Source of the DNA: Muribaculaceae bacterium
GTDB taxonomy: Bacteria > Bacteroidota > Bacteroidia > Bacteroidales > Muribaculaceae
DNA length: 64,000 bases
Reading direction: 5' to 3'
Assembly (NCBI GenBank): GCA_022508985.1
Contig: JAFLUA010000003.1
Coordinates: forward strand, 124,001-188,000
Each line of letters begins with the position of its first letter. The stretch's first letter is position 1. The notes under the pieces were generated by a model. The model worked only from the letters and a program-made list of their open reading frames with translations. It did no database searches and had not been told where the DNA came from. Both the position numbers and the translations under genes were made by a program. Of this stretch, positions 1 through 56,232 are shown in pieces.

Positions 1-3000
1 CCGCCTCGGCGACGGTTAGTGTTGACGTCGATAATTTGCGTTATACTGTCGATACTGATGCAAAAACTGCGGAGGTTTACGGATTAGCAACTGCATATTC
101 ATCAGCTACGATTAAAGACCTTGTTATTCCGGATTTTATTGAGTACGACGATTCAGACATCCCGGTAATATCTATTAGGGACAGCGCCTTTTCCCCAAAT
201 AAAAATCTCACAGGTTCGTTGACTATCGGCAACAATGTACAGACAATCGGTAACGATGCTTTCTGGAGCTGTTCGGGCTTTACCGGATCGCTAACTATCG
301 GCAACTCCGTGCAGACAATCGGGAACAATGCTTTCGAGGACTGTTCGGGCTTTACCGGATCGCTAACTATCGGCAACTCCGTGCAGACAATAGGTAACTA
401 TGCTTTCTATCAATGTTCGGGTTTTACCGGATCGCTGACGATTCCCGACAATGTTGAAGAAATCGGCAACTATGCTTTTAGGCTTTGTAGCGGCTTTACC
501 GGATCGTTGACAATAGGTGATAATGTACAGACAATCGGTGAGAGGGCTTTCGAGAACTGTTCGGGCTTTACCGGATCGCTGACGATTCCCGACAATGTTG
601 AAGAAATCGGCAACTATGCTTTTAGGCTTTGTAGCGGCTTTACCGGATCGTTGACAATAGGTGATAATGTACAGACAATCGGGAACCAAGCTTTCGATAG
701 CTGTTCGGGCTTTACCGGATCGCTGACGATTCCCGACAATGTTGAAGAAATCGGCAACTATGCTTTCGAGGACTGTTCGGGCTTTACCGGATCGCTAACT
801 ATCGGCAACTCCGTGCAGACAATCGGGAACGGTGCTTTTAAATATTGTAGCGGTTTTACAGGCTCGCTGACAATTCCCGACAATGTACAAACGATAGGGC
901 TGCAAGCATTCTATGATTGTAAAAATTTTACGGGTGAGTTAAAGATACCGGAGTCTGTAAAAGAAATCGGCCCAACCTGTTTTTCAAGTTGTGAAAAAAT
1001 AACATCTTTGGTAATCACGTCTTCCAATACTGTCATTAATTATCAAGCCTTTTTTTGCAGAGCTCTTGAATCCATAACTTGCTTAGGGATCACGCCCCCG
1101 AAATGTGTAGGCGGGAGCAGTATATTCGAGAGTGTATTTTTTACTACAAGCTATAATAAGCCTCTTTATGTACCTGCGGAATCTATAACTCTTTACAAAA
1201 ACGCTACAGAATGGAAAAAATTCCAATACATCAATCCCATATCAACCGAAGCTACCGACATCAAACTGAGTAAATCGGAATTAGAGCTGGCGATTGGCGA
1301 ATCGGAAACTCTTATAGCTACTCTGACCCCCGAAGACGCAACAACCGAAATCGTTTGGTCGGTCGATGATGCCGGCAAGGACATTATCGCTGTTGACCAA
1401 ACCGGCAAGGTAACCGCGCTTGCTGTAGGCGATGCAACAGTAACTGCCACTGCAGGAAATGTATCCGCCACCTGCAAGGTGACAGTCAACCCCATACTTG
1501 CCACAACGGTAACAATCAGTATACCGGATAAGGACGTGTTCGTCGGCGACAAGATTACGCTTACAGCCAGCATAACTCCCGAAAACACTACCGACAAGAC
1601 TCTGGTTTGGACCTCGGAGACTCCGGAGGTTGCCACTATCGACGCAGCAAGCGGCGAACTGACTGCCGTAGCTCCCGGTGAGGCAAAAATCAAGGTGGCC
1701 TGCGGCAATGTGTCGGCAACGGCCACAATCACTGTAAAACCGATTCTCGCTCAGTCTGTTAGGCTTAGCGCAGAAGATATTACACTCTTGGTCGGCGCAT
1801 CTCAAAAGCTGTCGGCCACTATTGAACCCGAAAACACTACCGACAAGTCTGTAACATGGAAGTCGGACAACGAGGCCATCGCTACTGTCAGCGAGGACGG
1901 CACAGTGACAGCCATTTCGGTCGGCACAGCAAATATCACCGCTACCTGCGGCGAAGTATCGGCAACCTGCAAGGTGACCGTCAACCCCGTGCTTGCCTCG
2001 ACAGTAACAATCAACCTGCCTGATAAGGACGTGTTCGTAGGCGACAAGATTACGCTTACAGCCAGTATAACTCCCGAAAACACCACGGACAAGACGTTGG
2101 TTTGGACGTCGGAGGCTCCGGCGATTGCCACTATCGACGCAGCAAGCGGCGAACTGACTGCCGTAGCTCCCGGAGAGGCAAAAATCAAGGTGGCCTGCGG
2201 CGATGTGTCGGCAACGGCCACAATCACCGTAAAACCAATTCTCGCTCAGTCTGTTACGCTTAGCGCAGAGGATATTACACTCTTGGTCGGCGCCTCGCAA
2301 AAGCTGTCGGCCACTATTGAACCCGAAAACACTACCGACCAGTCTGTAACGTGGAAGTCTGACAACGAGGCCATCGCTACTGTCAGCGAGGACGGCACAG
2401 TCTCAGCCGTTTCGGTCGGCACAGCAAACATCACTGCGACTTGCGGCGAAGTGACGGCTACCTGCAAGGTTACAGTAACACCGGTATCGCCGTCGTCAAT
2501 CGAGTTAAACATTAGAGATATGGTGCTCTACATTGGTCAGAGCGAGACCATTCAGGCCATAGTAAGACCGCCTAACACCACAAATCCGACCGTAACATGG
2601 CGAAGCGAAGACGAATCGATTGCAACAGTGTCGGCCGACGGTAAGGTGATAGGTATCAGCGAGGGCACAACAACCATTACGGCAACTTGCGGCGAAGTGT
2701 CGGCCACTTGCGCGGTAACCGTCAAACCAATTCCGGCTTCAAACATCGAGATAACCACGGGCGATGTGACCTTGACTATCGGTAGCACCACCACCTTGGC
2801 TGCCAAAGTGTCGCCCGAAAACACCACGCATCCCGACGTAGAATGGGTGTCGTCGGACACAGACATCGCTACGATAGCGGCCGATGGAACGGTAACAGCC
2901 GTTAGCGTCGGAACAGCTATCATTACGGCAAAATGCGGCAACGTCTCCGCCACTTGTACTGTAACAGTTATTCCTGTGCCATCGGATGGCATTGTGGTCA

Positions 3001-4568
3001 CACCTACTTCGGTTTCGATGTTGTTGGGCGATGAAGTGACACTTAAGGCTACTGTCTACCCTGAAAACACTACCGACAAGACCGTGACTTGGGGCTCCGA
3101 TAAGCCGAGCGTAGCCTCGGTATCGTCGAACGGCGTTGTTACGGCTTTGAGTGTAGGCACGGCGACTATAACAGCAAGCAACGGAACGTCGAAAGCCACA
3201 TGCGAGGTTACGGTTAATCCCGTTGTGGCCACCGGAATTTCGCTTAATGTACAGGATGAAACGATTTTTGTAGCTTCCACCACTCAGCTTATTGCCACCA
3301 TTTCTCCCTTCAATGTAACAGATAAGACCATAACATGGACGTCGAGCAAGCCCGAAATAGCCACAGTGAGCGACAACGGACTTGTGACCGGTATATCGGT
3401 AGGCACTACGACCGTTACGGCGACTATCGGCTCCGTCTCTGCTTCTGCCCAAATAAATGTGGTGCATCGAATTCCCGACATCGACCCCTCGGTGACAACT
3501 TCCGATAGAGATATTAAAACTATTTCAGGGAAACCGGTCAACATGGCCGTGTATCCCGTGGGTGGCGAACCGACAGGCTGGTCTTACACTTGGACTAAGA
3601 ACGGTGAAGTAGTGTCTCAATCCACAGAGCTGAATATCACAGCCATAAATGAATCTGAAAGTGTGATTGCCGAGACATATCGGGTAAAAGTGGAAAACGA
3701 AATCGACAAAGTTGTGATACTCTCCGAAATATTTGATTTCGTGGTTCAAATATATCCCGCCGTTGACGAAAATCTTAATGACGTAGACATCACTATTTCG
3801 ACCGGAAACGGCAGCTCGAACAAGACGCGCGAGGGCAATACGGTCGCTCTCTCCGTAACGACTCCCGCCGGTGGCTATCCCAACGGGTGGGAATATGTAT
3901 GGAGCGACGCTACGGGCGAAATTGGCAACGAAGAGACAGTAGAAACCATTGCGACAATGTCAGCCGGCAGCTCAATGGCGACAGAAGAAAACACCTACAA
4001 ATTGAAGATAACTAATTATGGTCCCGAAGGCGATGTTTGGGCGCAATTTAATCTGGAATCGAATTTAGAGGTATATCGCAGGCCCCAGACTCCTTTACAG
4101 TTGTTGCGTAAAGGCGATGGCACTTCGCATACATTCGTTGTAATGATGCCACTGTCTGATTCTCAACTCGAACAGTTAAATTATAGTTTCGTGTACGGCT
4201 GGACCGACTCGGAAGGTAATGACCATATTTTGGAACAGAGTAAACTCCGCTATTGTCATACCGAGGCCGAAATTTACAATAACTCCTCAAACAAATTCTG
4301 GGTATACTCGCTTTGGAACTATCCTGACGGAAGCGTTGTAAGCAGCGGTCTGTGCTATCTTGACGGTGGCATCGACGAAACATTCGACGCATCGGTGTTT
4401 GACGGAAGCTATGTATTTAATGAAATGTCGACAAAGAGCGGAAAAGCCGTCTATAGAATCGACGGGCTGTATATGGGCGAATCCATAAATAATTTGCTCC
4501 CGGGTATTTATATCGTAATATCGGAATCAAACGGAGTGAAGAGTTCACAAAAAATAGTAATACGCTAA
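1..4568 (+). CDS. Giant surface protein with LRR_5 repeats, nine Big_2 domains and a T9SS-like tail (5' end missing)
   Basis: The reading frame (codons from base 3) is open to the left edge, so the start and probably the signal peptide lie outside the window; the TTG at base 36 is only an internal codon. After a short N-terminal stretch come eleven BspA-like LRR_5 units of 24 residues (about 207-998) plus a degenerate twelfth. Nine Big_2 Ig-like domains of about 82 residues follow (1251-3470), then two PKD/Ig-like domains. The C-terminus contains LLPGIYIV and ends KIVIR, resembling a type IX secretion sorting domain. Such proteins are usually surface-exposed adhesins; that role is inferred. 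The domain calls are firm from the repeated motifs, the T9SS tail less so. A beta-barrel gene follows 13 bases downstream. Confidence 0.88.
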   Translation, partial: ASATVSVDVDNLRYTVDTDAKTAEVYGLATAYSSATIKDLVIPDFIEYDDSDIPVISIRDSAFSPNKNLTGSLTIGNNVQTIGNDAFWSCSGFTGSLTIGNSVQTIGNNAFEDCSGFTGSLTIGNSVQTIGNYAFYQCSGFTGSLTIPDNVEEIGNYAFRLCSGFTGSLTIGDNVQTIGERAFENCSGFTGSLTIPDNVEEIGNYAFRLCSGFTGSLTIGDNVQTIGNQAFDSCSGFTGSLTIPDNVEEIGNYAFEDCSGFTGSLTIGNSVQTIGNGAFKYCSGFTGSLTIPDNVQTIGLQAFYDCKNFTGELKIPESVKEIGPTCFSSCEKITSLVITSSNTVINYQAFFCRALESITCLGITPPKCVGGSSIFESVFFTTSYNKPLYVPAESITLYKNATEWKKFQYINPISTEATDIKLSKSELELAIGESETLIATLTPEDATTEIVWSVDDAGKDIIAVDQTGKVTALAVGDATVTATAGNVSATCKVTVNPILATTVTISIPDKDVFVGDKITLTASITPENTTDKTLVWTSETPEVATIDAASGELTAVAPGEAKIKVACGNVSATATITVKPILAQSVRLSAEDITLLVGASQKLSATIEPENTTDKSVTWKSDNEAIATVSEDGTVTAISVGTANITATCGEVSATCKVTVNPVLASTVTINLPDKDVFVGDKITLTASITPENTTDKTLVWTSEAPAIATIDAASGELTAVAPGEAKIKVACGDVSATATITVKPILAQSVTLSAEDITLLVGASQKLSATIEPENTTDQSVTWKSDNEAIATVSEDGTVSAVSVGTANITATCGEVTATCKVTVTPVSPSSIELNIRDMVLYIGQSETIQAIVRPPNTTNPTVTWRSEDESIATVSADGKVIGISEGTTTITATCGEVSATCAVTVKPIPASNIEITTGDVTLTIGSTTTLAAKVSPENTTHPDVEWVSSDTDIATIAADGTVTAVSVGTAIITAKCGNVSATCTVTVIPVPSDGIVVTPTSVSMLLGDEVTLKATVYPENTTDKTVTWGSDKPSVASVSSNGVVTALSVGTATITASNGTSKATCEVTVNPVVATGISLNVQDETIFVASTTQLIATISPFNVTDKTITWTSSKPEIATVSDNGLVTGISVGTTTVTATIGSVSASAQINVVHRIPDIDPSVTTSDRDIKTISGKPVNMAVYPVGGEPTGWSYTWTKNGEVVSQSTELNITAINESESVIAETYRVKVENEIDKVVILSEIFDFVVQIYPAVDENLNDVDITISTGNGSSNKTREGNTVALSVTTPAGGYPNGWEYVWSDATGEIGNEETVETIATMSAGSSMATEENTYKLKITNYGPEGDVWAQFNLESNLEVYRRPQTPLQLLRKGDGTSHTFVVMMPLSDSQLEQLNYSFVYGWTDSEGNDHILEQSKLRYCHTEAEIYNNSSNKFWVYSLWNYPDGSVVSSGLCYLDGGIDETFDASVFDGSYVFNEMSTKSGKAVYRIDGLYMGESINNLLPGIYIVISESNGVKSSQKIVIR
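207..998 (+). repeat. 72-bp tandem repeat array (LRR_5 coding)
   Basis: Eleven in-frame 72-bp units encode 24-residue leucine-rich repeats built around G-SLTI-x3-V-x2-IG-x2-AF-x2-CS. Two unit types alternate over much of the array (GxNVQTIG and PDNVEEIG), giving a 144-bp higher-order period. The stretch from about 421 recurs from about 565, almost identically and exactly 144 bp away, which points to recent duplication or gene conversion. Confidence 0.9.
1497..2486 (+). repeat. 495-bp tandem duplication of a Big_2 domain pair
   Basis: Bases 1497-1991 (Big_2 domains 2 and 3) and 1992-2486 (domains 4 and 5) are near-identical in DNA and protein. Both begin LA-x-TV and carry DKDVFVGDKITLTASI and then LLVGASQKLSATIEPENTT. 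The other five Big_2 domains are much more diverged, so this pair was duplicated recently in frame. Confidence 0.85.
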
Positions 4569-14155: not shown

Positions 14156-14422
14156 AATAATACTACTGAATTAATCGTTATCAATAAATCTATTTTCACA
14201 CAAAATTATTTAATCGCCTGCCAATATATTGTCTTTATTTTGCCCATTGTATATACACCCCCTTTGGCTGTACGAAATGAGTATTGCCCCTCTTTTCAAT
14301 CCTTCAATCAACCCTTTTCGGACCCACGTTTCGCGTATTTATCATAAAAATACTTGCCTGTCTCAATAATTATTACGAAATTAGTCGGGAAATTTAATTT
14401 ACACGCACAAATATCTGAAACA

Positions 14423-15490
14423 ATGAAAAAGATTAGTAGCTTATTGCTTATTTTAGGAATGCTCTTTAGCATCGTTTCGTGTACTAATGAGCCCGGACCC
14501 GGTGAAAAAGATGACGATGATAACAACAACAAATTTGAGAGTATTGACGCTCCCGACCATAATGTTATCGTTGCCTATGTTACTTCTTGGAGCTCGGGTA
14601 AACCCGACCCAAATCTCATCACGCACATCAACTATGCTTTTGGCGACGTTAATAAAACCTTTAATGGCATCACCATTAATAATCCGGCACGCCTGCGCGA
14701 AATGGCTTCGTTGAAGAAACAGAATCCTCAATTAAAAGTTCTGCTCTCGATTGGCGGATGGGGCAGCGGCGGCTTCAGTGAAATGGCTGCTAACAAAACT
14801 AATCGCCAAGCATTTGCGGCCGATTGTGCCAAAATTATAAAAGACTACGGCATCGATGGTATCGACATCGACTGGGAATATCCGGGCAGCAGCGTGGCCG
14901 GAATCTCCAGCAGCTCGAGCGATATGTCGAACTTCACTCTATTGATGCGTGATATCCGTAGCGCTATCGGCCGTGATAATTTGCTGACAATAGCCACTAT
15001 AGCATCGGCTAAATTTATCAGCTTCCGCGATGTAATGCCTTACCTCAACTACGTAAATATTATGTCGTACGACTTAGGCGAAGCTCCTTTACATCACTCT
15101 GCCTTATATAAATCAAAAAATACCCCGTCGCAAACATGCGACAGCTCTGTCAAAGCCCACCTCGCTGCTGGTATCCCTGCCGGCAAGCTCGTAATGGGTA
15201 TGCCGTTCTATGGCCGTGGTAAGGCCGGAACGGCTGCTGTTAACTACAAAAGCATCGTTATTCCCGATGATTGCTCCGTTTACTTCGATGAAGAAGCAAT
15301 GGTACCTTTCATCGCCGATGCCGACGGCGCTTTGATTTTTGGTTTCGACAATCCTTCGTCGCTGACAGCTAAATGCAAATACATTATGGATAACGGCCTT
15401 TTAGGCGCAATGTATTGGGAATTTGGAGGCGACAACGACAAAAAAGAATTGGCGACGGCCGTTTATAACGGCATATTTGGCCTAAAATAA
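14423..15490 (+). CDS. GH18 chitinase-like lipoprotein (first of a tandem pair)
   Basis: Start set at the ATG at 14423, which begins the lipoprotein signal (MKKISSLLLILG, lipobox IVSC); a longer in-frame start at 14354 would bury it. 355 residues. The Asp-rich linker PGEKDDDDNNN precedes a GH18 barrel with the SIGGWG substrate motif and the catalytic DxxDxDxE motif DGIDIDWEYP (E152 as acid, D150 assisting), then NIMSYDL and GAMYWEF. The family hydrolyses beta-1,4-GlcNAc linkages. Likely surface-anchored. Whether chitin, peptidoglycan-like or N-glycan substrates are used is unknown. Confidence 0.92.
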   Translation: MKKISSLLLILGMLFSIVSCTNEPGPGEKDDDDNNNKFESIDAPDHNVIVAYVTSWSSGKPDPNLITHINYAFGDVNKTFNGITINNPARLREMASLKKQNPQLKVLLSIGGWGSGGFSEMAANKTNRQAFAADCAKIIKDYGIDGIDIDWEYPGSSVAGISSSSSDMSNFTLLMRDIRSAIGRDNLLTIATIASAKFISFRDVMPYLNYVNIMSYDLGEAPLHHSALYKSKNTPSQTCDSSVKAHLAAGIPAGKLVMGMPFYGRGKAGTAAVNYKSIVIPDDCSVYFDEEAMVPFIADADGALIFGFDNPSSLTAKCKYIMDNGLLGAMYWEFGGDNDKKELATAVYNGIFGLK

Positions 15491-15509
15491 CACAAACTGC
15501 CACCGATAA

Positions 15510-15539
15510 GAAAATGGACGGCTTCGGTCGCCCATTTTC
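15510..15539 (+). terminator. Hairpin terminator
   Basis: GAAAATGG and CCATTTTC pair around a GC-rich TTCG-containing loop, followed by GTTCTTT. Confidence 0.65.
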
Positions 15540-15620
15540 GTTCTTTACTTGCAGATATCAATTTTTATTGCTAAATTAGTGAGGAATTTGTTATTTACAT
15601 AATATAAAACAACTAAATCT

Positions 15621-17108
15621 ATGATAATCAAAACATTGAGTAAAGTATTTATTCCCATTGGAGTAATACTGGCTTGTTTGTCTTGCGTCAAAACCGATGC
15701 CGAAAAAGTTGTTGACAAACCGCAGTCAAAGGTTGTCGCAGCCTATGTAACAGCGCGCGGAGCAGTTTTACCCGACCCTACGCTCGTTACGCACATCAAC
15801 TATGCTTTTGGCCATGTGAACGAAAACTTCGATGGCGTCAAAATTGCAAATGAAACTCGCCTGCACGAGGTTGCCGCCCTTAAAGAGCAAAATCCCGACC
15901 TGAAAGTGCTTTTGTCGATTGGTGGCTGGGGTAGCGGCCGTTTCAGCGAAATGGTGTCGAATGATACTCTCCGACAGTCGTTTGCCAACGATTGCGCTCG
16001 CATTGTAGCCGACTTCAACATCGACGGTATCGACATCGACTGGGAGTATCCGGGCAGCAGCGCCGCCGGCATATCAAGTAGCGAAGACGATTGCGACAAT
16101 TTTACCTTGCTGATGCGTGATATCCGCAACTGCATTGGCGCTGATAAATTACTCACTATTGCCAGCGCCGCATCGGCTAAGTTTATCGACTTCCCGAGTG
16201 TTTTGCCCTACATCGATTTCGTTAATATAATGTCGTACGATTTGGGACATGCTCCTCTGCATCAAGCCGCGCTATATCAGTCGGAAAACACTCCCGAATT
16301 TACGTGCGACTGGGCCGTTAAAGCACATGTCGCCGCCGGTATACCCGTAGGGCGCCTCGTTTTAGGCATGCCATTCTACGGACGCGGTCCGGTAGGAACT
16401 CCCGGTGCTAAATATAAAGACATCCAGGTGCCGGAAAATTGTACTGTCGTATTCGACTCAATAGCAATGGTGCCGTTTATAGCCGACTCCAAAGGCAAGA
16501 TGATTTTTGGTTTTGACAACCCCGCATCGTTGGCCGCAAAATGCAAGTATATCGAAGAAAACGGCCTCCTTGGTGCTATGTATTGGGAATATAATGGCGA
16601 TAACGATGAAAAAGAATTGGCCACCACTGTCTTTAATGGCGTCAATAGCCAAGCCATCGTACCTCATGTTATGGCTTTGAATGAGAGCGAAGACAATGAC
16701 GATTTCGTTACGGCAGCCATGGAGTGGCTCCGCAATCACGCTAAAACCAACAACTATATACTTACAGAAGTATATTCGTCGGAAAACATCAGCGATGAGT
16801 TTCTTAAAGACTATTGCCTCGTGGTGCAACTCAACCCCGTGGCGTGCCAATGTCGTGATAATGGCAATTCGGTATTTACTGATTACATCAATAACGCTAA
16901 CGGTGCTTTAATCGGTTTTACGACTTGCAAGAAATGCAAAGCAAAGGAGCTCGGTGCCAAGTCTGAGCAATCTCCTGATAATAGGACAACTGCACCAAGC
17001 GACAGCTGTAACATTAAAATACATATCGATCGCAACGCCAACCCATTCGGCTGCGACGACTTTATCCAAGAGCTCTCCAATGCCATCGAGCGCCGACTCT
17101 TAAAATAG
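15621..17108 (+). CDS. GH18 chitinase-like lipoprotein with C-terminal extension (second of pair)
   Basis: 495 residues with a lipoprotein signal (VILACLSC). Residues about 35-340 are a close paralogue of the preceding GH18 protein, with SIGGWGSG, DGIDIDWEYP (E142) and GAMYWEY. The extra 150 residues at the C-terminus begin near NSQAIVPHVMALNES and contain FLKDYCLVVQLNP, FTDYINNANGALIGF and several cysteines (CQC, CKKC). This outline loosely resembles ThuA-like glutamine-amidotransferase-fold domains, an uncertain inference. The pair probably arose by tandem duplication. An intervening terminator suggests separate transcripts. Confidence 0.88.
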   Translation: MIIKTLSKVFIPIGVILACLSCVKTDAEKVVDKPQSKVVAAYVTARGAVLPDPTLVTHINYAFGHVNENFDGVKIANETRLHEVAALKEQNPDLKVLLSIGGWGSGRFSEMVSNDTLRQSFANDCARIVADFNIDGIDIDWEYPGSSAAGISSSEDDCDNFTLLMRDIRNCIGADKLLTIASAASAKFIDFPSVLPYIDFVNIMSYDLGHAPLHQAALYQSENTPEFTCDWAVKAHVAAGIPVGRLVLGMPFYGRGPVGTPGAKYKDIQVPENCTVVFDSIAMVPFIADSKGKMIFGFDNPASLAAKCKYIEENGLLGAMYWEYNGDNDEKELATTVFNGVNSQAIVPHVMALNESEDNDDFVTAAMEWLRNHAKTNNYILTEVYSSENISDEFLKDYCLVVQLNPVACQCRDNGNSVFTDYINNANGALIGFTTCKKCKAKELGAKSEQSPDNRTTAPSDSCNIKIHIDRNANPFGCDDFIQELSNAIERRLLK

Positions 17109-51168: not shown

Positions 51169-52806
51169 ATGAAAATAAAAATCAACAAATCGACACATGC
51201 CGACAGCATATTGAGCCTCGTATTCGTATGTATGGCTTTAATCATCCCTCCTTTGTTTATACATTTAAATTTCTATCCGTGGAAAGATGAAGAGTATGAA
51301 CTAATGTTGATGGCCGACTATCGGGCCAATCCTTTGACGGGTCTCACGATGTACTTCGGACATTTGTGGTCGAAACATATCGGTAGCGATACTTTTTTTT
51401 CGTTTCGTCTACTGGCATATATTGTCAACACACTATGTGTAGTGTGTTCTTCGATCTACTTTTACCGTGTAACAAGAAATAAGCTTCTCAGCGCTTGGAT
51501 TTTCCTTATCCTCCAGTTGGCGCAATCGCTATATGCGTGGTATTCTTACGAGTGGGATACTATGTCGAACAGCATCCTTGCTGTATGTTGTGTGATTACA
51601 TATTCTTTCTTCCATCGGCCAACAACTCTAAAGATTATTTTAATCGGAATAATCTGTTCTCTCGGCATTTTTGCACGCGTACCCAATATTGCCGTTTTAG
51701 TGGTAATGTTTTGTCTCATTGCCGTTATGAAGATTGGCCTGCGTGAGAAATTTATCTACGGAGGCACGTTCTGTGTCTCTCTATTTTTGTCATCATTAGC
51801 AATTTGCATCTTGATCTGGGGAAGCATTGGCGGTTTTATCGCATCATGCATTCCCGATAACATCATAACCGGGCACGAATCTATTCTCAAATTAACAATC
51901 GATGGAGTCCTCGGTGTAGCCGTTATGGTTTCAGTATCGGTTTTATCGTGGATCGGTCTTCTGGCTATATTCGTTATTAGCGGACATTTGGTTAAGTCTG
52001 ATGCGCAACGAAAGCTCTCGTATTTCATATTCACTTTAGTGGGCCTGTCGATGTTGCTTTTAATAAGAGCGACAACATATTTAGATCACAACTTCTACAT
52101 TGAACTTTTTTATGTCTGCTTGGTTTTGGCCCCGCTTTTTGCCTATATTAAAAACGAGGATGTGCATGAGCCGCTCGTATCGTCGTTGATTTTGCTTGGC
52201 TTTGTTCTTTCGATGGTTGCTGGCTCGGATGTAGCACTTCACAAATTGCCATGTACGCCCTTATTTGCACTTGTCGTTCTCTCTTTTATGAAACTGCGAT
52301 GCAAGACTGTATTAAGATTTTTGATGATTGTAAGCATCTGTTTATTCGTCACATATCCTATTCTTCGGCTCAAGGACCCTCATACAAAAGACTGGATTAA
52401 TTGCTACACGACCGACTTCGGTCGTATCGAAAAACTAAAAGGCATTAAATCTTCCGAGGACTACGCATCATATGTAAAATCGGTTTACAATTGGGCAGAA
52501 GAGGTGGAAGCTCGTGGCGAAAAAATACTTTTTATCGGCCCCAAAAGATACTTTTTCGATTACATTCTAAACCACACAACCGATAGGGTTGATCGATATC
52601 CCGTACAGCGATATCACGATGATACTGAATACCAATGTCTTGAACAGACTCTTGTCGATGAGATTATTAATCGTTTCGACTTCGTGCATCTTTCTTATAT
52701 GCCAACCGATGAAGAATATGCCTTGATTAAAGCCGACTTCGAGAAGCGCGGTTTTTATATTACCGACAAAAAACCGCGAAGTATAATTCTTCAAAGACGC
52801 CAATGA
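51169..52806 (+). CDS. Polytopic membrane protein, GT-C glycosyltransferase-like
   Basis: 545 residues: about eleven hydrophobic helices in the first 390 residues, then a soluble C-terminal domain (about 400-545). The first loop has an acidic motif (YPWKDEEYELMLMADY), as in GT-C enzymes that use polyprenyl-phosphate donors, so a glycosyltransferase role is plausible but unproven. The last codons (RSIILQRRQ, stop at 52804) lie in a 25-bp sequence repeated at 53998, so the present 3' end may have been made by an insertion. Confidence 0.7.
   Translation: MKIKINKSTHADSILSLVFVCMALIIPPLFIHLNFYPWKDEEYELMLMADYRANPLTGLTMYFGHLWSKHIGSDTFFSFRLLAYIVNTLCVVCSSIYFYRVTRNKLLSAWIFLILQLAQSLYAWYSYEWDTMSNSILAVCCVITYSFFHRPTTLKIILIGIICSLGIFARVPNIAVLVVMFCLIAVMKIGLREKFIYGGTFCVSLFLSSLAICILIWGSIGGFIASCIPDNIITGHESILKLTIDGVLGVAVMVSVSVLSWIGLLAIFVISGHLVKSDAQRKLSYFIFTLVGLSMLLLIRATTYLDHNFYIELFYVCLVLAPLFAYIKNEDVHEPLVSSLILLGFVLSMVAGSDVALHKLPCTPLFALVVLSFMKLRCKTVLRFLMIVSICLFVTYPILRLKDPHTKDWINCYTTDFGRIEKLKGIKSSEDYASYVKSVYNWAEEVEARGEKILFIGPKRYFFDYILNHTTDRVDRYPVQRYHDDTEYQCLEQTLVDEIINRFDFVHLSYMPTDEEYALIKADFEKRGFYITDKKPRSIILQRRQ
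52779..52803. repeat. Left copy of a 25-bp direct repeat flanking an inserted segment
   Basis: Begins AAGTATAATTCTTC and ends GACGCCAA; identical to 53998-54022, 1219 bp away. It forms the last codons of the GT-C-like gene. Confidence 0.85.
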
Positions 52807-52832
52807 ATTGTGCAAACTTTATGGAATTTGGA

Positions 52833-52860
52833 GAGCGTCGAAATTAGCATAACGGCGCTC
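52833..52860 (+). terminator. Hairpin after the GT-C-like gene
   Basis: GAGCGTCG and CGGCGCTC form an 8-bp stem inside the left end of the inserted segment. Confidence 0.5.
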
Positions 52861-52872
52861 CTTATGTAAATG

Positions 52873-53085
52873 CTATTGCATTTCTATATCCTTGAATTCA
52901 TCAATCAAGTCAACAATATGCTTCCTCTCAATCATCACATTTTCTATAAGCTGTATTGGATCTTCAAAACACTCGGATATAGAATTGTTGTCTTCATTGA
53001 TCAAAACACAACTATCTCCATCAGAAGGAATACGATAATAGGTTCCATTATAGGAACTTCTCAGACCATAGAAGTTGACGGCCAT
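52873..53085 (-). CDS. Small acidic protein, unknown
   Basis: 70 residues, acidic (SDGDSCVLINEDNNSISE, DLIDEFKDIEMQ), without a signal or membrane helix. I recognise no family. Its start overlaps the end of the FtsK-like ORF by 25 bases on the same strand, so the two are probably cotranslated. Both sit inside the AT-rich segment bounded by 25-bp direct repeats. Confidence 0.45.
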   Translation of the reverse strand: MAVNFYGLRSSYNGTYYRIPSDGDSCVLINEDNNSISECFEDPIQLIENVMIERKHIVDLIDEFKDIEMQ

Positions 53086-53987
53086 GTCATACTTTTAATA
53101 TGTTCACAGATCTTCAATGTGTCGTTAAAATCTATATAAGCTCCTTTTATGCGTTCAATATTATCATTGAATTTATAAAGCATTTCGCCTCGGCCATTGA
53201 GATTTTCAGCACCCGCTCTACCTAAGATTTTTATTGAGTCACTTTCAAGCTGGACTGTAAATGAAATGCGCGCTTTGAAATTATCTCTGAGGTTACATGG
53301 AAGTTGACGTGAATGAATTTGTTGTGTGGCAAGAATTAAATGAATGCCAGTATTATTTTGTGAGGTTATCTTGCGTATATTTTCATAGAAAATATCTCCA
53401 AGCGCATCTGCAATAAGTTGGAATTCGTAGACAATCAATACTATTCGAGGCAAATAACGATGGTCTGACTCAGGGTTGGGTAAGATGTCCTTAAGCAGTC
53501 GGTTATACTCGTTAATGTTTTTTGCCTTTGCGTTATTCAGCAATTCAGTTCTAAATTTAATTTCATTATATATTGATGCTAAGATTTGAGATGATTTAAC
53601 AGAATCGGTTGCAGAAGCTATGCTTTGGTCAATTTTCAACATGAATTGGCTAATCTCTTCATATTGATGGAATTGCACATCGCGTGGATCAATAAAAGCA
53701 AATTTTAATTCATGAGGATATTTTTTAAATAATAATGATGAAATTATGCAATCTATGAAAAGAGATAGGCCTTGTCCTGTGGCCCCTCCTATTAACAGAT
53801 GAGGGAGAGTGCTTAAATCAACGATCTTTTTACCATCATTTAGGGATTTACCTAAAATTATGGGTAGATCACCTCTAAAATTTTGGAATTCATTAGAATT
53901 GATAAATTCTTTAAAAGCTACAAGATTTCTCTCTGTGGGATAATCATTCAATAAGTCTGAAGGCGGAAGCTTATATATTTTTTCCAT
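53061..53987 (-). CDS. Stand-alone FtsK-type motor domain with inactivated Walker motifs
   Basis: 308 residues that follow the FtsK motor from start to end: DGKKIVDLSTLPHLLIGGAT, SLLFKKYPHELKFAFIDPR, the ATQ block (TGIHLILATQQ), RISFTVQLESDSIKIL and GAENLNGRGEMLY. No membrane domain or gamma domain is present. The Walker A GxxGxGKS reads GATGQGLS (Leu at 74 for Lys) and the Walker B DE reads YE (Y187), so ATP hydrolysis is very unlikely. FtsK normally pumps DNA at division; this copy could bind DNA or host FtsK without pumping, or be decaying. It lies inside the 25-bp-repeat-bounded segment, with no promoter seen in the 35 bases before it. Confidence 0.78.
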   Translation of the reverse strand: MEKIYKLPPSDLLNDYPTERNLVAFKEFINSNEFQNFRGDLPIILGKSLNDGKKIVDLSTLPHLLIGGATGQGLSLFIDCIISSLLFKKYPHELKFAFIDPRDVQFHQYEEISQFMLKIDQSIASATDSVKSSQILASIYNEIKFRTELLNNAKAKNINEYNRLLKDILPNPESDHRYLPRIVLIVYEFQLIADALGDIFYENIRKITSQNNTGIHLILATQQIHSRQLPCNLRDNFKARISFTVQLESDSIKILGRAGAENLNGRGEMLYKFNDNIERIKGAYIDFNDTLKICEHIKSMTWPSTSMV

Positions 53988-53997
53988 TTTACACGCT

Positions 53998-54022
53998 AAG
54001 TATAATTCTTCAAAGACGCCAA
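53998..54022. repeat. Right copy of the 25-bp direct repeat
   Basis: Identical to 52779-52803; the bases before it (CGCT against CGCG) extend the match with one mismatch. Confidence 0.85.
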
Positions 54023-54029
54023 AGTGTTG

Positions 54030-54055
54030 AATAGCGCTGTCGGGAAGGCGCTATT
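54030..54055 (-). terminator. Hairpin at the end of the GH89 gene
   Basis: AATAGCGC and GCGCTATT form an 8-bp stem that reaches the GH89 stop codon. Confidence 0.55.
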
Positions 54056-56232
54056 TAGAAATATTTCTTCAAGAAGGTTCGTGCAAGCTCGACGGGGTCT
54101 TCATCGCTAAGGTCGGTAGCGTCGGAGTGAGAATTGACCCACTCTTCTTCCCATTTTATTATGCGAGCACGGAAATCGGCTTCGTCGAAAACCTCGCCAC
54201 GTTCCATGCACTCGATCAGCTCGCCTATAAACTTGGACCAGCGCACCTTATAGTATCCGGAAATCAGGCCGCTCCAGTGGCGGTTGGCATAGTCGTTAAG
54301 CACAGTCCCTGGATAGCCCCATGTTGTCAATAGCGAGCGGGCATCTTTTTCGTACACGTCTTTTTCACTATCGTCGAGGCCCTTGCTTCGTGCGCTGTCA
54401 ATCCATTTTTTCAACGAATAATCGGCATTTGTGGCCATTATCCTATCGAGGTCGGTTAAGAGTGACTCCATTTGCGCGCCAAGCGCTTTAACCTTATCGG
54501 TGTTATTGTTGTTATAAGCCGCGGTAAGCGAGTCGCGCATCGCCATAAACTCATTGCTGAGCGCTTGCCGGGTGAGGTTCATAACGTCGAAGCGATAAGC
54601 CTTGCTATCGATATTAGGCGCTGCCTCAAGAAGGGTTTTGAGGGCTGCTACCAGGTCGCTGTTGTCGTATGAATAGTTGGCGTTGGCGCACCCCGATGTG
54701 CGGGCCGTCAACGAGGGCCGCACGTTAGTGAGGCCGCCCTGCCCGTTTAGCGATTTCGCAACATATACCTTGTCGTTTAAGATATGCCAGGCCTTATTGA
54801 CGGCCGCGTCGTGCTTGGCACCACGAGTATCGGCCCATAGGTCGACCCACGCGTCGGGCGTCAGCTCAGGGTTCCACACCTTGGCGAGCATAAATTCATG
54901 CATTATGGGGTTTACATCGAGGCCTTCGAGGGTGCCGCCCATGCCACACTTATTATCGCCGCCCTGCTCTAAAAAATCGTTGATACGCTTGTCGACAACG
55001 CCCAAATCGCCTATTAGCATCGTGTTGCCTCCAAAATTGCCGAGATAACACAAGATATAGGGCTTGCCAAAATATGCGTCGGTTAACTCCCACACCGGCT
55101 GCGCTTCGCAATAATAGTCGAGAAGTATCAAGCCTTTGTCGGGCACTCCTTCGAGGAAGGCCTTGATGCGAGGCTTTGTCCAATGCTCGGAGTCGTTATA
55201 GAACGTCCATGTCATCTGGAGCCAACGAGCCTCGGGGTCGGCCGCCGTTAATGTAGAATAGATGTTAGCCGAAACATTGCGCAGAAAATCTTCGCTCCAA
55301 TCCGGAGAATCAAGCTCGTTAAACGGGTCGACGCCGTAGATATGGTCGCTGCCGTAAATGCTGTCTTGGAGTGTTACAAATTTATGTTGTATCTCGGCGT
55401 AAAGAGGATCCGACGGGTCGAGAAACCAAGTGTTGTCGTCGCCTCGAAAGCCGCACCACTGCTTGTGACGCGTTATTTTAGCATCGGGATATAGCTCTTT
55501 CAAGGCACTAGGCACGTGTCCGCTAAACGCTGGTAAGACGGGTTTCATGCCGAGCTGGCGCTCACGCAATAGTATTTGTTTCTGAAGGTCTTCATTTATC
55601 TTGAGCCAATTTAACGATAAGGGTCCGGCATAGTGGTCGATATTGGCCATCCAGTGCCACGGCAAGTGCGACGGCCCGGTAAAAGACTGTAAGATGGCAT
55701 CGCTCGAGAGGCCGAAACTCAGCCATGTTTCATACCATATTTTTTCCTGGCCTGTCATGGCAAGCGGCATATTTATACCGTTGAGTGCCATCCAGTCGAT
55801 GAAACGCTCCCAATCGGTCCAACTCCAATAAGGCATAGTGTAGCCAAAAGTACAATAATTGAGGAAGAAACGCTCGTCGACAACGGCTTTCCCTGTTATG
55901 GGTGCTTCGGGGAGAATAATCGCCTCGGGCAATTCTACCGGCTGAGAGGCAAACCACGACACACTCGTGCCAAGGGTTTGTCGTAGATAATTATTCAGAC
56001 CGACACTCATCGCAATAGCCGAAGAGCCTTGGATAAGAATTTTTTCATTGCGTGACGACACAGAATAGAAATCGTCTACACCCGCCACTTCTTCAAAAAT
56101 AATATTATCTGCCAGGCGTGGCGCCACCCTGCAAGCCAAATCGTAGGCTGCTTTTTCGCTTTCATAACCCATAACTGTAATACAAATGCCGATGAGACAA
56201 CTAATTGCGGCAAATCTACGCGGTATTTTCAT
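54055..56232 (-). CDS. GH89 alpha-N-acetylglucosaminidase
   Basis: 725 residues with a Sec signal peptide (ISCLIGICITVMG). The order is the NAGLU N-terminal domain, the TIM barrel (FLNYCTFGYTMPYWSWTDWERF, MALNGINMPLAMTGQEKIWYE, YGVDPFNELDSPDW with the probable acid/base Glu) and the C-terminal helical domain (LLTDLDRIMATNADYSLKKWI). The family cleaves alpha-linked GlcNAc, for example from mucin or heparan sulfate. A -7 box lies upstream, divergent from the M48 gene. Confidence 0.95.
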   Translation of the reverse strand: MKIPRRFAAISCLIGICITVMGYESEKAAYDLACRVAPRLADNIIFEEVAGVDDFYSVSSRNEKILIQGSSAIAMSVGLNNYLRQTLGTSVSWFASQPVELPEAIILPEAPITGKAVVDERFFLNYCTFGYTMPYWSWTDWERFIDWMALNGINMPLAMTGQEKIWYETWLSFGLSSDAILQSFTGPSHLPWHWMANIDHYAGPLSLNWLKINEDLQKQILLRERQLGMKPVLPAFSGHVPSALKELYPDAKITRHKQWCGFRGDDNTWFLDPSDPLYAEIQHKFVTLQDSIYGSDHIYGVDPFNELDSPDWSEDFLRNVSANIYSTLTAADPEARWLQMTWTFYNDSEHWTKPRIKAFLEGVPDKGLILLDYYCEAQPVWELTDAYFGKPYILCYLGNFGGNTMLIGDLGVVDKRINDFLEQGGDNKCGMGGTLEGLDVNPIMHEFMLAKVWNPELTPDAWVDLWADTRGAKHDAAVNKAWHILNDKVYVAKSLNGQGGLTNVRPSLTARTSGCANANYSYDNSDLVAALKTLLEAAPNIDSKAYRFDVMNLTRQALSNEFMAMRDSLTAAYNNNNTDKVKALGAQMESLLTDLDRIMATNADYSLKKWIDSARSKGLDDSEKDVYEKDARSLLTTWGYPGTVLNDYANRHWSGLISGYYKVRWSKFIGELIECMERGEVFDEADFRARIIKWEEEWVNSHSDATDLSDEDPVELARTFLKKYF

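Follow-up and report, generated by a model that had tools for sequence, protein, structure and literature searches.

A 1.2 kb AT-rich segment, very probably inserted at the 3′ end of a membrane-protein gene in a Muribaculaceae genome, encodes a truncated FtsK derivative with altered motor residues

Introduction

Cis-mobilizable elements (CIMEs) lack the genes for integration and transfer and keep the attachment (att) sites attL and attR, and published att repeats range from 8 to 60 bp in length (both as given in the relevant sections of PMC5704250). Xer-exploiting elements (IMEX) are linked to the division motor FtsK: the part of PMC9765430 that deals with them describes an element in Neisseria whose stability is tied to FtsK and an element in Vibrio that encodes its own XerD-activating factor. 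Within FtsK, roles have been assigned to the arginine finger and to residues of loops I and II, for which we follow the pertinent portions of PMC7321959. Here, we describe a locus of a Muribaculaceae bacterium (assembly GCA_022508985.1, contig JAFLUA010000003.1, positions 124,001–188,000 of the forward strand; this whole stretch of 64,000 nucleotides is called the window, and its numbering is used throughout) in which an AT-rich segment of 1.2 kb lies between two copies of a 25 bp direct repeat and carries an open reading frame (ORF) for an FtsK-like protein of 308 residues. An earlier note, made from the sequence alone, had pointed to the repeat and proposed something like a site-specific integrant at a gene terminus that, lacking a recombinase, may be mobilised in trans or be a degraded remnant.

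Results

The insert and its direct repeats

The 1.2 kb segment very probably entered this locus by insertion, which is well supported because abrupt edges, a distinct composition, a duplicated gene end and a displaced stop codon and hairpin are all present (Table 1). The two repeat copies are identical over 25 bp, as the earlier note had read them; upstream, past one mismatch, three more bases match, giving 28 of 29 positions, and similarity around the copies ends within about 36 bp. In the frame of the membrane-protein gene the left copy leads to a protein end ...QRRQ with TGA directly after it and the path through the right copy leads to ...QRRQSVE and TAG, in agreement with the two ends deduced previously. 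The AT-richness noticed at first reading is borne out by a GC content of 34.3%, compared with 40.5% for the membrane-protein gene, 50.4% for the neighbouring alpha-N-acetylglucosaminidase (NAGLU) gene and 47.0% for the whole window. Two minus-strand ORFs of 308 and 70 amino acids (aa) fill most of the insert, and a plus-strand ORF of 89 aa (52870–53139) overlaps both. Family scans, which covered the two minus-strand ORFs, gave no transposase or integrase for either of them, as first reported, and no family of recombinases, relaxases or type IV secretion components either. Some transfer proteins contain FtsK-type domains. No inverted pair of at least 12 bases joins the two insert ends, and Rfam gave no match at E 0.1 in 52500–54300. 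The insert does not qualify as an insertion sequence or transposon, with neither a transposase match in the minus-strand ORFs nor terminal inverted repeats of at least 12 bases.

Table 1. Features of the locus, in window coordinates
Feature	Position	Strand	Remarks
Membrane-protein gene, 545 aa	51169..52806	+	3′ end duplicated
Left repeat copy	52779..52803	+	Exact 25-mer at the end of the membrane-protein gene; 28/29 if extended to 52775
AT-rich insert	52804..53997		1194 bp, 34.3% GC
Imperfect hairpin	52830..52862		Flanked by the new stop of the membrane-protein gene and the 3′ end of the 70-aa ORF
70-aa ORF	52873..53085	-	Shares 25 bp with the end of the FtsK-like ORF
308-aa stand-alone FtsK beta-subdomain derivative (predicted)	53061..53987	-	Substitutions at the Walker A Lys, the Walker B Asp, the arginine finger and DNA-loop residues
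Right repeat copy	53998..54022	+	Exact 25-mer; in frame leads to SVE and TAG at 54032-54034
Terminator-like hairpin	54027..54058	+	12 pairs, overlaps the displaced stop; z -4.8, 0/200 shuffles fold equally well
NAGLU gene	54055..56232	-	Same strand as the FtsK-like ORF, which follows 67 bp downstream

By a rough estimate of our own, made without a tool, chance would yield about 5e-7 exact 25 bp pairs no more than 8 kb apart per 64 kb window. The window contains 24 exact pairs of at least 20 bp, and the other 23 lie at 267–3063 or 14621–16026, either within one repetitive gene or shared by a pair of related genes. With up to three mismatches allowed, the 25-mer occurs in the host genome at these two sites only and in none of the 48 other genomes of the genus that were searched; the exact 25-mer has no match in the viral contigs. 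A search of about 447 kb of the 2.07 Mb host genome for pairs of at least 18 bp spaced by 300–8000 bp returned 24 pairs.

Eighteen of the pairs from this wider search lie at 124–127 kb or 138–140 kb of contig C12, in repetitive or related genes; the remaining ones are the window pair, that of an element on contig C5 and pairs at C12:1260, C12:1281, C12:122600 and C1:81256. Of the 24 long exact pairs within the window, 21 stem from a protein of 1510 aa (36–4568) with long internal repeats, and two adjacent related genes at 14354–17108 with chitinase-like motifs share exact repeats 20 and 24 bp long.

The hairpin at the displaced stop is probably the original terminator of the membrane-protein gene; a terminator scan also recovers it, yet that scan returned two sites against 2.8 expected by chance. 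The imperfect hairpin inside the insert is not significant against shuffles (stretch z of -0.9 and -1.4) and could possibly act as a terminator common to the membrane-protein gene and the 70-aa ORF. The start codon of the FtsK-like ORF lies 10 bp from the right repeat copy, and the sole sigma-70-type match just upstream, scoring 9 of 12, runs from this copy into the start codon. Since 10 such sites were found against 7.4 expected by chance, the match does not show a promoter of the ORF's own.

The FtsK-like protein

The 308-aa ORF matches Pfam FtsK_SpoIIIE with E 3.6e-25 and 89 bits (cut-off 24). It is 40% identical to the chromosomal FtsK of the host genome and averages about 39% identity to a set of 51 FtsKs from its order, whose mutual identity averages 69% (56–98); this set includes the FtsK of Bacteroides finegoldii, from which we take the order to be Bacteroidales, and the Walker A lysine belonged to the pattern by which its rows were picked, no locus being lost through it. 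The N-terminal YKLPPSDLLNDY aligns where the alpha subdomain of FtsK begins, the next 100 or so residues of alpha are missing, and the ORF then spans the beta subdomain, with homology stopping before gamma, where the motor ends. By alignment it lacks the membrane domain, gamma and almost all of the alpha subdomain. The comparison shows a predicted protein descended from FtsK and cut down to the beta RecA-like subdomain, with much of the structural core kept.

Several residues at the heart of the motor are replaced (numbers of 600 and above refer to Pseudomonas FtsK, through alignment). The Walker A lysine K74 is changed to Leu, the Walker B aspartate D187 to Tyr, the arginine finger R620 (R211 in the numbering of the ORF) to Asn and R632 of the DNA-gripping loop II to Gln, at positions where the residue replaced is present in 51 of 51 order FtsKs; R661 of loop I, a position occupied by R or K in all 51, is changed to Ile, and G640, among the DNA-gripping loop residues, to Cys. 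A working translocase is judged very unlikely because several of the residues that hydrolyse ATP and grip DNA are lost. The protein is thus more than the label 'FtsK-like' of the earlier note conveys; the loss of catalytic residues had gone unseen there. If the protein acts at all, it would most likely mimic FtsK without catalysis, by binding either FtsK itself or the partners of FtsK.

We lean slightly towards a pseudo-motor kept by selection rather than a dead fragment. The sites retained number 62 of 97 near-invariant, 36 of 86 intermediate and 15 of 98 variable positions (20 of 98 when compared with the nearest FtsK), and all 308 codons are open, with 20,000 mononucleotide shuffles giving open runs of 155 at most. 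A competing explanation, a decaying and horizontally acquired ftsK fragment without function, is possible although doubtful. It would account for the deleted subdomains and lost catalytic residues, the very long branch described below, the single occurrence and the AT-richness, but it fits poorly with 308 stop-free codons in a protein that differs at over half its positions from each of the FtsKs compared, with conservation that tracks the invariant core of FtsK and with an overlap with the second ORF of the kind seen in translational coupling. The earlier proposal of a degraded remnant suits the missing recombinase, but the cargo stays open over 308 codons and has not the look of a freshly decaying FtsK copy.

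Relatives and origin

No closer relative of the 308-aa ORF was found in 49 genomes of the genus (E 1e-3), among the matches listed for 393 genomes of the order (E 1e-40), or in 397 genomes of the family and 395 of the class (E 1e-57 for both); these sets overlap, and outside the genus the E limit excluded weaker matches. Nowhere did identity exceed 42%. All other matches in the genus lay in open frames of at least 502 aa, bar one frame of 301 aa in genome G010 (34% identity), and Pfam PF01580, matched in 48 of the 49 genus genomes, revealed no further short frame among the strong matches. Scans of genome_contigs and viral_contigs, sensitive to close relatives only, gave nothing closer; the viral scans returned one viral FtsK and ten viral loci, one of them on the same contig, making 11 loci on 10 contigs. 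A DNA pattern of the dead Walker A had nine matches, none of them FtsK-like on inspection.

Two trees, containing 29 and 10 of the 51 FtsKs, place the ORF inside the host genus (support 96/98 and 97/99) with the FtsK of genome G005 as its neighbour, on a very long branch of 9.06 and 2.84 changes per site, respectively. Approximately unbiased (AU) tests did not reject placements outside the host genus (p 0.27 to 0.54). Three diagnostic sites agree with the genus, none with the order and five with neither; for the seven-genome host subclade the count is three to three, with ten neither. Because the AU tests leave other placements open and the diagnostic sites are few, derivation from a host-genus FtsK is taken as no more than a hint.

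The 70-aa ORF has one weak relative in the genus, in G005, at 31–32% identity (32% over 66 aa). Its family matches to phrog_3711 (E 0.0012), Csm6 (E 0.0039) and ERCC4 (E 0.013) were judged to be noise, and its identity as a phage protein was rejected, phrog_3711 matching 12 of 149 order genomes, its own included, at similarly weak E. In tblastn searches at E 10 it matched two phage records and no plasmid, and its G005 relative matched one phage record.

Kinship with defence ATPases was also considered for the 308-aa ORF. Matches to mad8, which cover nearly the full model at E 2.9e-12, and to SspH were judged generic because the ordinary FtsK of the host genome scores better (mad8 6.4e-27, SspH 7.1e-49), and a PADLOC scan of the insert ORFs found no partner genes of MADS or Ssp defence systems beside it.

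The 545-aa product of the target gene, taken for a membrane protein at first reading of the sequence, has no Pfam or NCBIfam match. Relatives occur in eight of the 48 other genus genomes, the best at 27–30% identity, and no close one was found in genome_contigs or viral_contigs. Five distant relatives (21–25%) of this gene stand on one strand in a single 7 kb stretch of another genome (G071:C21, 4539–11704).

Discussion

The explanation that we prefer as a whole, with roughly even confidence, runs as follows. A small AT-rich unit would have entered the 3′ end of the membrane-protein gene and duplicated about 25–29 bp, so that the gene gained a new stop codon and its old stop and hairpin came to lie on the far side. 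Having no recombinase of its own, the unit would work like, or remain from, an att-bounded integrative element, and may be a CIME-like remnant or have been moved in trans. Its cargo would be the two-ORF minus-strand block, the 308-aa ORF probably being transcribed by read-through from NAGLU. The segment is probably a remnant of a mobile unit, and for an att-type, CIME-like origin we put the chances at about one half. Attachment by a tyrosine recombinase is plausible: the repeat length of 25 bp falls within the published range, and the host genome has an integrase-bearing element of its own bounded by a 24 bp repeat. The latter, with a tyrosine integrase encoded between its repeats, suggests that integrases make repeats of about this length in this host. 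This element spans 7.7 kb near a tRNA-Thr gene (locus L151, 3516–11297; about 26.0–33.8 kb of contig C5 of the host genome, G000) and encodes the integrase (402 aa) together with HTH_17, AAA_25 and DUF6371 proteins.

Several observations weigh against this explanation. We infer the insertion from one genome, since no relative with an empty site, that is, a single copy of the 25-mer, was found among those searched, and no integrase could be linked to the 25-mer. The target gene is poorly conserved, as its best genus relatives show, an unusual choice for a site-specific integrase. The site-specific integrant of the earlier note is supported in part: well as an insertion, and as a plausible origin where a tyrosine recombinase is concerned. 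Among the residues of the motor, the Walker A Ser, the Walker B Glu and Q222 are retained, K643 is changed conservatively to Arg, and K657 of loop I varies even across normal order FtsKs; the losses at functional sites are modestly enriched (6 of 8 versus 29 of 89, Fisher p 0.024) at sites that were chosen after the motifs had been seen. Any old FtsK relative would retain near-invariant sites more, and this contrast alone is no proof of present function. Neither a second copy of the unit nor an ortholog of the 308-aa ORF for a selection test was found, and the predicted structures were too poor for use (predicted local distance difference test, pLDDT, 33 and 56).

A transposon-type insertion, in which a trans-acting transposase of unknown kind or the repair of a break duplicated 25 bp at a near-random site, is rather unlikely. 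A non-conserved target gene is what random entry would lead one to expect and the perfect identity over 25 bp suits a target duplication, but no inverted pair of at least 12 bases links the insert ends and the three-base match past the single mismatch slightly favours an att core. A target duplication of 25 bp is long compared with those of known transposases. Far less probable is an IMEX that host XerCD would have integrated at a dif-like site and that an FtsK mimic would protect by blocking FtsK-triggered excision, even though the insert has no recombinase and carries an FtsK relative. With E. coli dif for a yardstick (the host species' dif was not identified), the repeat regions match the dif arms at no more than 10 and 11 of 22 positions, 11 being the commonest value in 400 random 100 bp pieces of the window, and dif-like repeats at the insert ends were rejected as a match at random level. 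That the repeat belongs to a longer paralogous duplication of the membrane-protein gene, an objection raised in the earlier note and suggested by its being the gene's last codons, is barely credible, since similarity stops within some 36 bp and the FtsK-like ORF begins so close to the right copy.

Pseudo-versions of ring ATPases are known that regulate their active cousins. A literature search of limited depth, which is no proof of absence, turned up no pseudo-version of FtsK. If the 308-aa protein binds FtsK, it would offer a natural dominant-negative tool for the division motor, and the insert would be an example of a recombinase-less unit of only 1.2 kb whose cargo targets the cell cycle of its host. 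At its furthest, our preferred explanation becomes a minimal recombinase-less integrating unit with a dead, host-like FtsK subunit that acts as a decoy or poison of the host FtsK hexamer and tunes division or dimer resolution to the benefit of the element; we regard this as a long shot.

Compared with known systems, the insert resembles a CIME in having direct repeats at both ends, a position at the 3′ end of a gene and no recognisable integration or transfer genes. It differs in its size of only 1.2 kb, in repeats that are candidate att sites at most, in a target gene that is not conserved and in that no related integrative and conjugative element (ICE) or integrative and mobilizable element (IME) was found. 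The 7.7 kb element on C5 shares its genome and a similar repeat length and differs by its own integrase and an unrelated repeat. Several viral and phage FtsK-like translocases, among them L152, L154–L156 and mycobacteriophage proteins annotated as FtsK-like, are short as well (350–399 aa for L154–L156). The viral FtsK of L152 (4620–5426 of an IMG/VR viral contig that ends inside the gene) begins near the same KLP-LLNDY alpha motif as the 308-aa ORF and has an intact Walker A. Unlike the ORF, all 11 viral loci retain the Walker A lysine and have more sequence before the motor, and the ORF is not closer to viral FtsK-like proteins (22–35%) than to 10 cellular FtsKs (38–42%). From the FtsK/SpoIIIE translocases themselves it departs in the missing membrane, gamma and nearly all alpha parts and in its changed key motor residues, while it shares with them the beta signature GATGQG, GIH-ILATQ, ARI-F-V, DS and GRG-ML.
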